This document shows positions 30,733 to 35,645 of a stretch of DNA of 64,000 bases, piece after piece. A program made the position numbers and the translations under genes. Below the pieces are notes generated by a model. The model was not told the origin of the DNA. It did not search any database and saw nothing but the letters and a program-made list of their open reading frames with translations. Position 1 is the first letter of the stretch; each line of letters opens with the position of its first letter. This DNA comes from Streptomyces sp. NBC_01478 (GTDB taxonomy: Bacteria > Actinomycetota > Actinomycetes > Streptomycetales > Streptomycetaceae), in contig NZ_CP109444.1 in assembly GCF_036227225.1 (NCBI RefSeq), positions 5,933,501-5,997,500 on the forward strand. The letters run 5' to 3'.

Positions 30733-31129
30733 GAGGGGGCTCCAGAAATAAATCGGTGGTGGCGGGTGCCGTCCTGGCTGTCACCGTGCGCCCACGAGTA
30801 GCTCGCAGTTACGCCCGAGTGCACCGCTTCCCGATCACCTCGAAGTGATCTGTGCCCATCGGAGGCAGGCGGCAGCAGCCATCGACAACTCGACCTGGTC
30901 ACGGTACGCGGGGCTACGCCATCCGGTCAAACCAAGGGTCACGAGGAGACACTATCCACAGGCTGGGGACAACAACTTGAACCGCAGCCGTCGCCCTGAC
31001 TACCGTGGCTGGACTCCGATTCGTTCCTTTGTCCCCCGCCCCACACCTTTTTCCCGAGCGCCCCACCCGATGTACATCCCGTCCGTCCGCGAACCACACG
31101 TTCGTGGGACCCGTGAGAGAGCGTGCCCT
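30733..31129. promoter_or_regulatory. divergent rpmH/dnaA promoter region
   Basis: A 397-base gap with no credible gene. A single DnaA-box-like CTATCCACA lies at 30952-30960, followed closely by ggctggggacaacaactt. It is placed where DnaA could repress its own gene. I cannot locate promoter hexamers with confidence in this GC-rich sequence. Confidence 0.55.
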
Positions 31130-33067
31130 GTGGCTGACGTACCTGCCGATCTTGCCGCAGTGTGGCCACGAGTGCTGGAGCAACTTCTCGGTGAGGGGCG
31201 TGGGCAGGGTGTCGAGACCAAGGACGAGCACTGGATCCGGCGTTGCCAACCCCTGGCACTCGTGGCAGACACCGCCTTGCTCGCCGTACCGAACGAATTT
31301 GCGAAAGGCGTGCTCGAAGGCCGCCTCGCGCCGATCGTCAGCGAGACCCTGAGCCGCGAGTGCGGCCGACCGATCCGTATCGCGATCACCGTCGACGACT
31401 CCGCCGGCGAGCCCCCCGGCCCGCCGGCACCCCCTGCCCAGCCCCAGCGTCGCTACGAAGAACCCGAGCAGAGCCGCGACCCGTACGAGGGCGGCTACGG
31501 CCGGCACCGCGCCGAGCCGCTCCCCGGCGGCCCGGGCGACCAACTGCCCACCGCCCGCCCCGCCTACCCGTCGGAGTACCAGCGCCCCGAGCCGGGCGCC
31601 TGGCCGCGGCCGGCGCAGGACGACTACGGCTGGCAGCAGCAGCGACTCGGCTTCCCGGAGCGCGATCCGTACGCCTCGCCGTCGCAGGACCAGTACGGAC
31701 CGCCGTCCCAGGATCAGTACGGGGCGCCGGCGAAGGACAAGTACGGCCCGCCCCAGGACTCGTACCAGTCGCAGCAGGACCCGTACGCGCCGCCGACGCA
31801 GGACTACCGCCCGCAGTCGATGGAGCGTCCGTCGTACGAGCAGCAGCGCGCGGAGTACGAGCAGTCGCGGGCCGAGTACGAGCAGTCCCGCGCGGAGTAC
31901 AACCAGCGCGACGCGCGCCGCGACCTGTCCGACTCGCGTTCGTCCTCGAACTCCGGTCATGTGCACCGCGGCGGTCCGGGGTCGCCGGGACCGCTGGGCT
32001 CGAAGCCCGCGCCGGCGGCCGGCCCGGGCGAGCCGACCGCACGCCTGAACCCGAAGTACCTCTTCGACACGTTCGTCATCGGTGCCTCGAACCGCTTCGC
32101 GCACGCGGCCGCGGTCGCCGTCGCCGAGGCGCCCGCGAAGGCGTACAACCCCCTTTTCATCTATGGGGAGTCGGGGCTCGGCAAGACGCACCTGCTGCAC
32201 GCGATCGGGCACTACGCGCGAAGCCTGTACCCCGGCACGCGCGTGCGGTATGTCAGCTCGGAGGAGTTCACCAACGAGTTCATCAACTCCATCCGCGACG
32301 GCAAGGGCGACAGCTTCCGCAAGCGGTACCGCGAGATGGACATCCTTCTTGTCGACGACATCCAGTTCCTCGCGGACAAGGAGTCGACGCAGGAGGAGTT
32401 CTTCCACACGTTCAACACGCTCCACAACGCGAACAAGCAGATCGTGCTCTCCAGCGACCGGCCGCCCAAGCAGTTGGTCACCCTGGAGGACCGGCTGCGG
32501 AACCGTTTCGAGTGGGGACTGATCACCGACGTCCAGCCGCCCGAGCTGGAGACCCGTATCGCCATCCTTCGTAAGAAGGCGGTGCAGGAGCAGCTCAACG
32601 CCCCGCCGGAGGTCCTGGAGTTCATCGCCTCCCGCATCTCGCGCAACATCCGCGAGCTGGAGGGGGCGCTGATCCGGGTGACGGCGTTCGCGTCGCTCAA
32701 CCGGCAGCCGGTGGACCTCGGTCTCACCGAGATCGTCCTCAAGGACCTCATCCCGGGCGGCGAGGACTCGACACCCGAAATCACCGCGACGGCGATCATG
32801 GGCGCGACCGCCGACTACTTCGGCATCACGGTCGAGGACCTGTGCGGCAGTTCGCGCGGCCGCCAGTTGGTCACGGCCCGGCAGATCGCCATGTACGTGT
32901 GCCGCGAACTGACCGACCTCTCCCTGCCGAAGATCGGCGCGCAGTTCGGCGGCCGCGACCACACCACGGTCATGCACGCCGACCGCAAGATCCGCGCACT
33001 GATGGCCGAGCGCCGCTCGATCTACAACCAGGTCACCGAACTGACCAACCGCATCAAGAACGGCTGA
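31130..33067 (+). CDS. dnaA: chromosomal replication initiator DnaA
   Basis: Binds DnaA boxes at oriC, melts the origin and recruits the helicase. The 645-residue protein has domain I (1 to about 100, [14 protein letters not shown]), an exceptionally long domain II linker (about 100-305), the AAA+ domain III with Walker A GESGLGKT near residue 346 and Walker [11 protein letters not shown] near 405, and the domain IV signature [15 protein letters not shown] near residue 608. E. coli DnaA is 467 residues; the excess is the linker, which contains repeats (SQDQYGPP and RAEYEQS units). The GTG at 31130 ([10 protein letters not shown]) follows gagagagcg; the upstream open frame is not coding in character. 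Confidence 0.98.
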
Positions 33068-33085
33068 CAGCAACGGAGTTACGAC

Positions 33086-33127
33086 GCCGAAGGGCGCCCA
33101 GGGATCTCTCCTGGGGCGCCCTTCGGC
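33086..33127. terminator. hairpin after dnaA
   Basis: gccgaagggcgcc is paired with its exact complement, and the stem continues with one bulge to a loop of about 8 bases. It lies 19 bases beyond the dnaA stop and insulates oriC from dnaA transcription. Confidence 0.85.
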
Positions 33128-33189
33128 TTGCCGGGAGCCGGCCGGGACGGGGCGCTCGGAGGGAGACGGAAAGTCCTGCGGCGGGCGCC

Positions 33190-33690
33190 GGGGAGAGGAG
33201 CCCGAAGGGTGTCCTGGGAGGAGTTCCCGGAGGCGTCCGGAGGCGATCCGCAGAGGATTCCCAGGAGGCGTCCCACCAAGCGGTGTAGCCGGTCAGCCTT
33301 CGCGGTTTCGCCGCTTCGCAGCTCGCGACCGGGTTCGGCCAGGCATCCCGGGACCGGGGAACCCGCACCGCCCTGACTGGCTCGCGCGGCGGGAGCCGAT
33401 GGTGCAGCCGGGCCGGCCGATCACAGGTCCTCCGGACCGCCGCGATCCAGGTGACTGCGCGACGTGGTGGGACGCCACCGATTCCCAGCCGGTCCGGCGC
33501 CGCTCAGTGCCGAGAGAGCACCGCTCCCCAGTCTCCCCGGAGGTGCTCCGGAGAGATCCGGAGTCGCTTTGAAGCAATCCGAGGCTCGTCCAGGCCCTCT
33601 CCAATGCCGATCCCAGCCCCTCCGTAGCCCTTCTTGAGGCGCTCCGCAGCCCCTCGGAGCCGATCCGAAGCCCCTCCACGGCCGCTCCGG
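33190..33690. repeat. imperfect short repeats left of the DnaA-box region
   Basis: The stretch between the dnaA terminator and the first DnaA box contains recurring short motifs: GCCGATCC followed by AGCCCCTCC twice (33606-33623 and 33659-33677), a related GCTCCGCAGCCCCTCGG between them, several copies of tccggag, and two ggaggcgtcc copies near 33230-33280. No open frame here has convincing codon bias. It may be spacer DNA or a binding region for origin-associated proteins. Confidence 0.45.
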
Positions 33691-33761
33691 AGGACGTTCG
33701 CTGCCCTCTCCCGCCCGCCCGTCCGCCGCCCGCTGTTCGAATACCCGCCGGGTTACGGCTG

Positions 33762-34300
33762 CCCTCCACAGATTTGGTGACTTTCTTCCGTCCACATCCT
33801 GGGGACTGTGAAGTTGTCCAGATCGTGTCCACAGGCGCTGCAGGTGAGGGACGATCAGACCAGGTCAGGTGCTTGTGGATTCGTGGACAAAAGATCTCCA
33901 CAGGCTGTGGACAAAACCGTGATCCACAGGCTTGGGACGAAGTTGTCCACCGACAACCCACAGGCTGGGGGCGGTTGTCCCCAGCGATCTCCAGCTTCTC
34001 CACACCGCTGTCCACTGTTCGGCAACGCAACGCGCCACCTCACCGTGTCGAGTGAAAGGCGTCACACGAAGGTGCCGGGTTGGGCTGTGGGAAAGGTGGG
34101 TAAAGCTGGGGACGGCGCTGGGGAGAAGTGGCCCTCGGCTGTGCATGGGGTGTGCAGAACTTTCCGTTCTCCACAGAAACCCGAGGTTGTCCACCGCCGT
34201 CGCCCACAGGGTCGGTGGACAAAATTCCTGCCCTGAGCTGCGAAAACGCGGTTATCCACGGTATCCACAGCCCCTACTACTACTAGCAACTAGAGAGAGC
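33762..34300. other. oriC: origin of replication oriC with DnaA-box arrays
   Basis: About 18 DnaA boxes with at most two departures from TTGTCCACA, in two groups. Group one begins at 33762, 33788, 33814, 33825, 33874(-), 33882(-), 33894, 33906(-), 33920, 33943, 33975, 33996 and 34008. Group two begins at 34167, 34187, 34214(-), 34252 and 34261. The only exact TTGTCCACA is at 33906-33914 on the reverse strand. A box-free gap of about 150 bases separates the groups. The position between dnaA and dnaN and the number of boxes match the experimentally defined Streptomyces origin (about 19 boxes, from memory). There is no strongly AT-rich block. Confidence 0.95.
34252..34286 (+). promoter_or_regulatory. 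tandem DnaA boxes plus DnaA-trio-like unwinding element
   Basis: Two abutting boxes, TTATCCACG (34252-34260) and GTATCCACA (34261-34269), are followed by a short GC tract (gccc) and then CTACTACTACTA at 34274-34285. Read 3' to 5' on the opposite strand this is GAT repeated four times. The order box, box, GC tract, GAT trinucleotides is that of the basal origin unwinding element described in Bacillus subtilis. Confidence 0.65.
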
Positions 34301-34514
34301 TGGGAAACCGTTTCGAAGCGGGGCCTGTGCACAACTCGCGCTTCGTCGCCCGACAGCCCCTCGTCACGACTTGACCCCGATAGGCACCTACTGTCAGTGC
34401 CGTGCGTCAGACTGTTCCCCGGATGTCCTTCCCCTCACAGGGACCGACGACACCGAGACAGACGACGAAGCCAGGCAGGCCGAGAAGCGCCGGCAACAGC
34501 AGGAGGCGGCAACA

Positions 34515-35645
34515 GTGAAGATCCGGGTGGAACGCGACGTACTCGCGGAGGCAGTGGCCTGGGCGGCACGCAGCCTTCCGGCCCGTCCGCCGGCGCCGGT
34601 CCTCGCCGGCCTCCTGCTGAAGTCCGAGGAGGGGCAGCTCAGCCTGTCCAGCTTCGACTACGAGGTCTCCGCGCGCGTGTCGGTCGACGCGGAGATCGAG
34701 GAGGAGGGCACGGTCCTCGTATCGGGCCGACTGCTCGCCGACATCTGCCGTGCGCTTCCCAACCGGCCGGTGGAGATTTCCACAGACGGTGTACGGGCGA
34801 CGGTGGTCTGCGGCTCCTCCCGCTTCACCCTCCACACACTGCCTGTGGAGGAGTACCCGGCGCTGCCGCAGATGCCGGGCGCGACCGGCACCGTCCCCGG
34901 TGAGGTGTTCGCGTCGGCCGCCGCCCAGGTGGCCATCGCCGCCGGGCGCGACGACACGCTGCCGGTCCTCACCGGTGTGCGCATCGAGATCGAGGGCGAC
35001 ACGGTGACGCTGGCGTCCACCGACCGCTACCGCTTCGCGGTCCGCGAGTTCCTGTGGAAGCCGGAGGACCCGGAGGCGTCCGCGGTCGCCCTGGTGCCCG
35101 CCAAGACGCTCCTGGACACCGCCAAGGCCCTCACGAGCGGCGACAGCGTGATCCTGGCGCTGTCCGGCTCGGGCGCGGGAGAGGGGCTCATCGGCTTCGA
35201 GGGCGCCGGTCGTCGTACGACGACCCGTCTCCTGGAGGGCGACCTCCCGAAGTACCGCTCGCTGTTCCCGACGGAGTTCAACTCCATCGCCGTGATCGAG
35301 ACCGCGCCCTTCGTGGAGGCCGTCAAGCGCGTGGCCCTGGTCGCCGAGCGCAACACCCCGGTGCGGCTGAGCTTCGAGCAGGGCGTGCTCATCCTGGAGG
35401 CCGGTTCCAGCGACGACGCACAGGCTGTGGAGCGGGTCGACGCGCAACTGGAGGGCGACGACGTGTCGATCGCCTTCAACCCGACGTTCCTGCTGGACGG
35501 CCTGAGCGCGATCGACTCCCCGGTGGCCCAGTTGTCCTTCACGACCTCCACCAAGCCCGCGCTGCTCAGCGGCAAGCCCGCCCTGGACGCCGAGGCGGAC
35601 GAGGCCTACAAGTACCTGATCATGCCGGTGCGCCTCAGCGGCTGA
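34515..35645 (+). CDS. dnaN: DNA polymerase III beta subunit (sliding clamp)
   Basis: The ring-shaped processivity clamp of the replicative polymerase. The 376-residue protein has the three-fold repeated clamp domains; MKIRVERDVL-like start, LAGLLLKSEEGQLSLSSFDYEVSA, ATDRYR-equivalent STDRYRFAVREF, and the C-terminal PVRLSG end. The GTG at 34515 is preceded by an optimal aggagg at 34501-34506; the open frame extends 48 codons upstream into oriC but without coding character. It is followed by gnd and recF, as in other Streptomyces. Confidence 0.98.
   Translation: MKIRVERDVLAEAVAWAARSLPARPPAPVLAGLLLKSEEGQLSLSSFDYEVSARVSVDAEIEEEGTVLVSGRLLADICRALPNRPVEISTDGVRATVVCGSSRFTLHTLPVEEYPALPQMPGATGTVPGEVFASAAAQVAIAAGRDDTLPVLTGVRIEIEGDTVTLASTDRYRFAVREFLWKPEDPEASAVALVPAKTLLDTAKALTSGDSVILALSGSGAGEGLIGFEGAGRRTTTRLLEGDLPKYRSLFPTEFNSIAVIETAPFVEAVKRVALVAERNTPVRLSFEQGVLILEAGSSDDAQAVERVDAQLEGDDVSIAFNPTFLLDGLSAIDSPVAQLSFTTSTKPALLSGKPALDAEADEAYKYLIMPVRLSG

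Follow-up and report, generated by a model that had tools for sequence, protein, structure and literature searches.

The dnaA-dnaN intergenic region of Streptomyces sp. NBC_01478 raises the question of where, in an origin with many DnaA boxes, the two DNA strands first separate. In the 64-kb stretch of DNA analysed (hereafter the window), this region (oriC, 33068–34514) lies between dnaA (30845–33067, plus strand; this is the longest open reading frame, and the true start is probably further in) and dnaN (34515–35645, plus strand), which served as the anchor for comparison. Between 33814 and 34334 it contains 18 matches to the box sequence TTNTCCACA, one mismatch being allowed. A sequence-only reading of this DNA had proposed an answer: two abutting DnaA boxes, a GC tract and CTA trinucleotides, arranged in that order as in the basal unwinding system (BUS) of Bacillus. 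We compared this element with the origins of related genomes, with those of Bacillus relatives and with the published record.

Layout of the element

The letters from 34252 to 34285 confirm the proposed order. The upstream box, TTATCCACG (34252–34260, plus strand), and the downstream box, GTATCCACA (34261–34269, plus strand), are each one mismatch from TTNTCCACA, and they are co-oriented with no gap between them (34252–34269). They are followed by GCCC, a 4-nt GC spacer read from the sequence (34270–34273), and by the four-trio run CTACTACTACTA (34274–34285; G at 34286), the minus strand of which reads as four 3'-GAT-5' trios. Trios 1–3 (34274–34282; 3'-GAT-GAT-GAT-5' on the minus strand, CTACTACTA on the plus strand) form a constant unit, followed by a fourth trio on the minus strand (34283–34285, CTA on the plus strand) that is variable in the family. 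The element lies about 230–260 nt before dnaN in the window and in most relatives. It is found at position 5,967,752 of a 12,124,816-base contig, 49% of the way along, and a central oriC fits the linear chromosome of Streptomyces (PMC4285127).

No other copy of CTACTACTA was found in the 64-kb window on either strand, and the pattern TATCCACAGN{1,8}CTACTACTA has a single match in the window's own 12.12-Mb genome. This pattern matches in 111 of the 295 genomes of the genus, and its backwards-read control in none of the 295. A search of a plasmid collection found no similar oriC at the sensitivity used. The origin had also been described as lacking an AT-rich block, and this stands to the extent that no intergenic 100 nt exceeds 49% AT (the intergenic maxima are 49% per 100 nt and 52% per 50 nt); however, the 100-nt maximum of the intergenic region, at 34218–34319, covers the element and ranks high within the 64 kb (roughly the 99.95th percentile). 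Over 20 nt, the element ties with a site at 33768 (both 65% AT). An AT-rich block beside the boxes, as in the classical AT-rich DUE of the E. coli type, was not found here.

Conservation in the Streptomycetaceae

The DNA upstream of dnaN was compared in 153 genomes of the family, of which 104 belong to the same genus as the window and 49 represent 16 other genera; two genomes (G325 and G329) were left out because they had no usable stretch. Each origin was anchored on the best abutting box pair by box score alone, at most 700 nt from dnaN, the letters of the trios being unused. In all 153 origins the box pair is followed by a 4-nt spacer with C as its last base and by CTA-(C/T)TA-CTA, and the sole variable base of trios 1–3 is the first of trio 2 (C in 138, T in 15). 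In the upstream box TTNTCCAC is almost invariant (153/153 origins), and the downstream box has TCCACA in 153/153. The fourth trio is CGA in 46 origins, CTC in 36, CTA in 26 and CTG in 16, with the rarer forms CCC (13), CCA (8), AGA (4) and others (4). Three trios are thus the constant unit, since the fourth varies among family origins, and only a minority of the family shares the fourth CTA of the window. The sequence-only reading had named unconserved CTA repeats as a finding that would speak against it; trios 1–3 are kept in 153/153 origins, and only the fourth CTA varies.

Among the 104 aligned genomes of the genus, the best-conserved 20-mer in the last kilobase before dnaN is 34264–34283 (mean identity 98.1%, against a median of 76.2% over all 20-mers), and the best-conserved 35-mer is 34250–34284 (94.3%; median 77.1%).

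Several other features of these loci were observed. In one genome (G099, locus L150), 635 nt separate the element from the inferred start of dnaN, as against about 190–330 nt in other family genomes, and this dnaN start may be misplaced, or an insertion may be present. A TAGA-like block at 34291–34297, about 18 nt past the start of the trios, is well conserved (A 126, G 104/T 47, A 143; n = 153). A second DnaN-like gene, 43–53% identical to the oriC-linked one, is present in 30 of 101 genomes of the genus. AGATCT, which resembles an ATP-DnaA box, follows the trios in only 5 of the 153 Streptomycetaceae and 2 of the 51 actinomycete genera described below, so an ATP-DnaA-box-like site after the trios is no general feature.

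Comparison with the BUS of Bacillus subtilis

The BUS of B. subtilis comprises DnaA-box#6/7 and DnaA-trios, and Richardson 2016 is reportedly among the studies of it. Its literature also includes Richardson 2019, Pelliciari 2021 and Pelliciari 2023. DnaA-dependent strand separation in B. subtilis requires elements of this type, boxes followed by trios (PMC6669920; PMC8287927). In the cryo-EM analysis of the B. subtilis protein, six trios are engaged, two bases of each trio are captured via N187, R202 and E228, and I190 and I193 flank the third trio base (PMC10721633). The equivalents of these five pocket residues are encoded at 32273–32398 (plus strand) in the window's dnaA, and all five are identical.

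Eighty loci of Bacillus relatives, collected with B. subtilis DnaA as the query, were compared; 55 have a box pair by box score alone and 25 do not. In 50 of the 55, the boxes are phased by 8 bp and followed by a 4-nt spacer and then by trios; the other five, in which a 9-bp pair 550–601 nt after dnaA is followed by sequence that is not trio-like, were left out. The sequence in Bacillus halotolerans (L295), whose DnaA segment of 341 residues shows 100% identity to the B. subtilis protein, is TTATCCACA-AATCCACA-AGCC-CTACTATTACTTCTACTAC, and the window trios have the same strand orientation, permitting 3'-to-5' filament growth from the boxes. Both the window and the B. subtilis BUS have two co-oriented boxes, a GC spacer of 4 nt, trios that read GAT on the complement of TTATCCACA, and the same pocket residues in DnaA, but the window boxes are phased by 9 bp rather than 8, its family has three constant trios, and no T-rich run directly follows the trios. 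The likeness to the Bacillus system that had been claimed is supported by observed features of sequence and geometry (order, spacing, orientation and strand), by genomic position, by near-invariance in the family and by the pocket residues of DnaA. Two actinomycete genomes (G350, locus L214, and G404, locus L233) share the 8-bp phasing of the Bacillus relatives, in place of 9 bp.

The element is of a known type. A BUS has been predicted in 1755 of 2070 species with a search rule calling for a box, a spacer of at most 16 bp and at least three consecutive 3'-NAN-5' trios, GAT being the commonest (PMC8287927), and the window element, with a box, the 4-bp GCCC and four GAT trios, follows this rule. 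Streptomyces is not named in the main text of that paper, and the species tested mechanistically, as far as its available text tells, include no actinomycete. DnaA-trio entries exist in DoriC and Ori-Finder 2022. Streptomyces may well be listed in the supplementary tables of Pelliciari 2021 or in DoriC, and origin databases may already list the element. The origin of Kocuria rhizophila is likewise an actinomycete origin between dnaA and dnaN with annotated DnaA-trios, but, in the available text, this is annotation only, in one genome (PMC12500396). In the text examined from papers that mention both DnaA-trios and Streptomyces, the genus appears in other contexts or in reference lists. In the AT-rich DUE of the E. 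coli type, DnaA boxes also adjoin the unwinding site (PMC13220808), but the Streptomyces window has no AT-rich block; the need of E. coli for its trio-like sequences is described as unsettled (PMC13220808).

The central trio base across actinomycetes

A further 102 genomes of the same order and class were examined, 77 of which have a box pair by box score alone; the 25 without one were left out, and the set was reduced to one genome per genus (51 genera, 33 family labels, with one family split in three). After the 4-nt spacer, trios 1–5 show a strong 3-nt rhythm in the 51 genera, ending after trio 5. The third plus-strand base is A in 49, 44, 44, 37 and 28 of the 51 genera for trios 1–5, respectively, and the central base is T or G (A or C on the bound strand) in 49, 44, 37, 38 and 39. 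Trios of the form N-(T/G)-A number 3.51 of five on average in register, at most 0.33 when shifted by 1 or 2 nt, and 0.44 in the regional background; none of 5000 random placements reached the observed mean.

The central base is divided between T and G in ratios of 40:9, 21:23, 19:18, 16:22 and 10:29 at trios 1–5 (51 genera), and the central letters of A-ending trios are T 91, G 88, C 18 and A 5. G makes up 88 of the 111 non-T central letters, where 39% would be predicted from the same regions (binomial p ~1e-17, a value that ignores relatedness). With one genome per family, it makes up 55 of 71 non-T central letters, and a sign test by family comes out 21 to 6 for central G, 6 families being tied (p = 0.003). 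The higher the local GC, the commoner is central G on the plus strand (Spearman 0.39, p = 0.004, 51 genera). Three consecutive central A's are present in register in 13 of the 51 genera, and in 15 if all registers up to 16 nt from the second box are counted, although the published program scans whole origins, so other sites in these genomes may have been scored; three consecutive central A or C bases are present at the anchored site in 36 of the 51. Residue 187 is N in all 63 readable loci of the 102 class genomes.

A looser pattern search of 394 genomes, conditional on A at the third base, gave 83 matches in genomes above G498, outside the 102, some of which are due to chance, as the backwards control also matches in some genomes. 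G makes up 75 of the 109 non-T central letters of these matches; with an exact TTNTCCACA required as the first box, the figure is 31 of 50 (p = 0.001). In other classes of the phylum, 22 loci (L381–L402, of 88 genomes with a dnaN match) yielded five box pairs and at most four trio-like starts. In the 50 Bacillus-relative origins, the central plus-strand letter is T at trios 1–3 in 50/50, and the 21 non-T central letters of trios 4–6 comprise 20 G and one A (central G against 21% expected, p ~7e-13, again ignoring relatedness).

A review holds that only A can stand in the middle of a trio (PMC6727663), and three or more central A's were required by the published search (PMC8287927). Deviant trios were suspected in Pelliciari 2021. 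Pelliciari 2023 reported that C, which also bears an amine read by N187, can replace the central A in B. subtilis, and that central G and T impair opening there, and considered that other DnaAs might recognise different sequences (PMC10721633). The natural trio sequences follow this amine preference deduced from altered B. subtilis trios, which suggests that the published letter code for trios is too narrow. On positional and compositional grounds, from 51 actinomycete genera and 50 Bacillus-relative origins, the natural trio alphabet is probably 3'-G-(A or C)-T-5', with a central amine read by N187 and with cytosine commonly used by GC-rich Actinomycetes.

Some observations count against so wide a rule. 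In the Streptomycetaceae, trio 5 has a central G on the bound strand in 117 of 153 origins, and central C on the plus strand persists in 13, 11 and 12 of the 51 genera at trios 3, 4 and 5, respectively. At residue 202, the contact to the first trio base in B. subtilis, the 84 matched class loci have R in 39, Q in 25 and K in 6, with 14 unread, and residue 228 is A in 3 of the 84. No link was found between residue 202 (R, or Q/K) and either the first trio base or central T (Mann-Whitney p = 0.45 and 0.99, 36 genera). A quarter of the 102 class genomes yielded no box-pair anchor. The literature searched showed no title on a central-C actinomycete array assayed with its own DnaA. In one family (f38; G488 and G498, that is, loci L291 and L292, and G526, G607 and G686), the box pair is followed by a near-palindrome of the GTTAACACC(GTTAA) type instead of trios, possibly a different opening element.

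Origin opening and alternative explanations

The element is highly likely to be the BUS of oriC, with DnaA-ATP on the boxes seeding a filament on the trio strand and the duplex being opened. By homology with B. subtilis, DnaA would be loaded and the strands separated here, and the first opening of the strands would very probably occur at this element. DnaA-ATP would bind the two abutting boxes and so form a platform; beginning at 34274 and proceeding towards dnaN, further DnaA subunits would then line the minus strand in the 3'-to-5' direction, with roughly one subunit for every trio. The G and the A with which each trio begins would be captured in the N187/R202/E228 pocket, and the filament would hold the duplex open for helicase loading. 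Some points argue against a BUS: the boxes are phased by 9 bp here, as against 8 bp in 50 Bacillus-relative origins; there are three constant trios, with a mostly G central base on the bound strand of trio 5, as against six trios engaged in B. subtilis; and no actinomycete is among the species used to test the mechanism (PMC8287927).

The strands might instead melt first elsewhere in oriC, for example near 33768, close to dnaA, the element then being a later DnaA docking or helicase-loading site. The 20-mer at 33768 is equally AT-rich (65%), and the available text of the literature searched (including PMC3411110) yielded no melting map and no melting data for any Streptomyces origin; however, 33768 does not adjoin such a box pair among the listed boxes, and it is at the element, not at 33768, that AT content per 100 nt and conservation peak, which makes first melting elsewhere unlikely. 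A role for the element in transcription rather than in unwinding, as a site through which DnaA regulates dnaN, is more doubtful still. Its position some 230–260 nt ahead of dnaN, in the window as in most relatives, could suggest such a role, but a promoter would not need the strict 3-nt rhythm of trios in register with the boxes seen over 51 further genera, and the spacing to dnaN ranges from 199 to 647 nt. A CTA repeat is simple sequence, and its fourth copy varies here, as might be expected of a run that lies beside two boxes by chance, but such an accident is scarcely credible given conservation in 153/153 family origins and a backwards control of 0/295. The chance repeat and the dnaN control element were both considered and rejected on this evidence of conservation, control and rhythm.

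Significance

The preference for a central amine, seen here in natural sequences, had previously been found by altering B. subtilis trios, and it is the relatives that hold the unexpected part. If the wider alphabet is true, some origins thought to be free of trios would carry central-C trios, and the results suggest that origin-finding programs should accept C besides A at the central trio base. For Streptomyces, the element provides a base-precise, near-invariant candidate for the site of origin opening, where DnaA boxes are many and an AT-rich block is lacking, and the unwinding site thereby becomes directly testable. More broadly, the results suggest a way in which GC-rich origins could keep a single strand readable by DnaA without a run of central A's.
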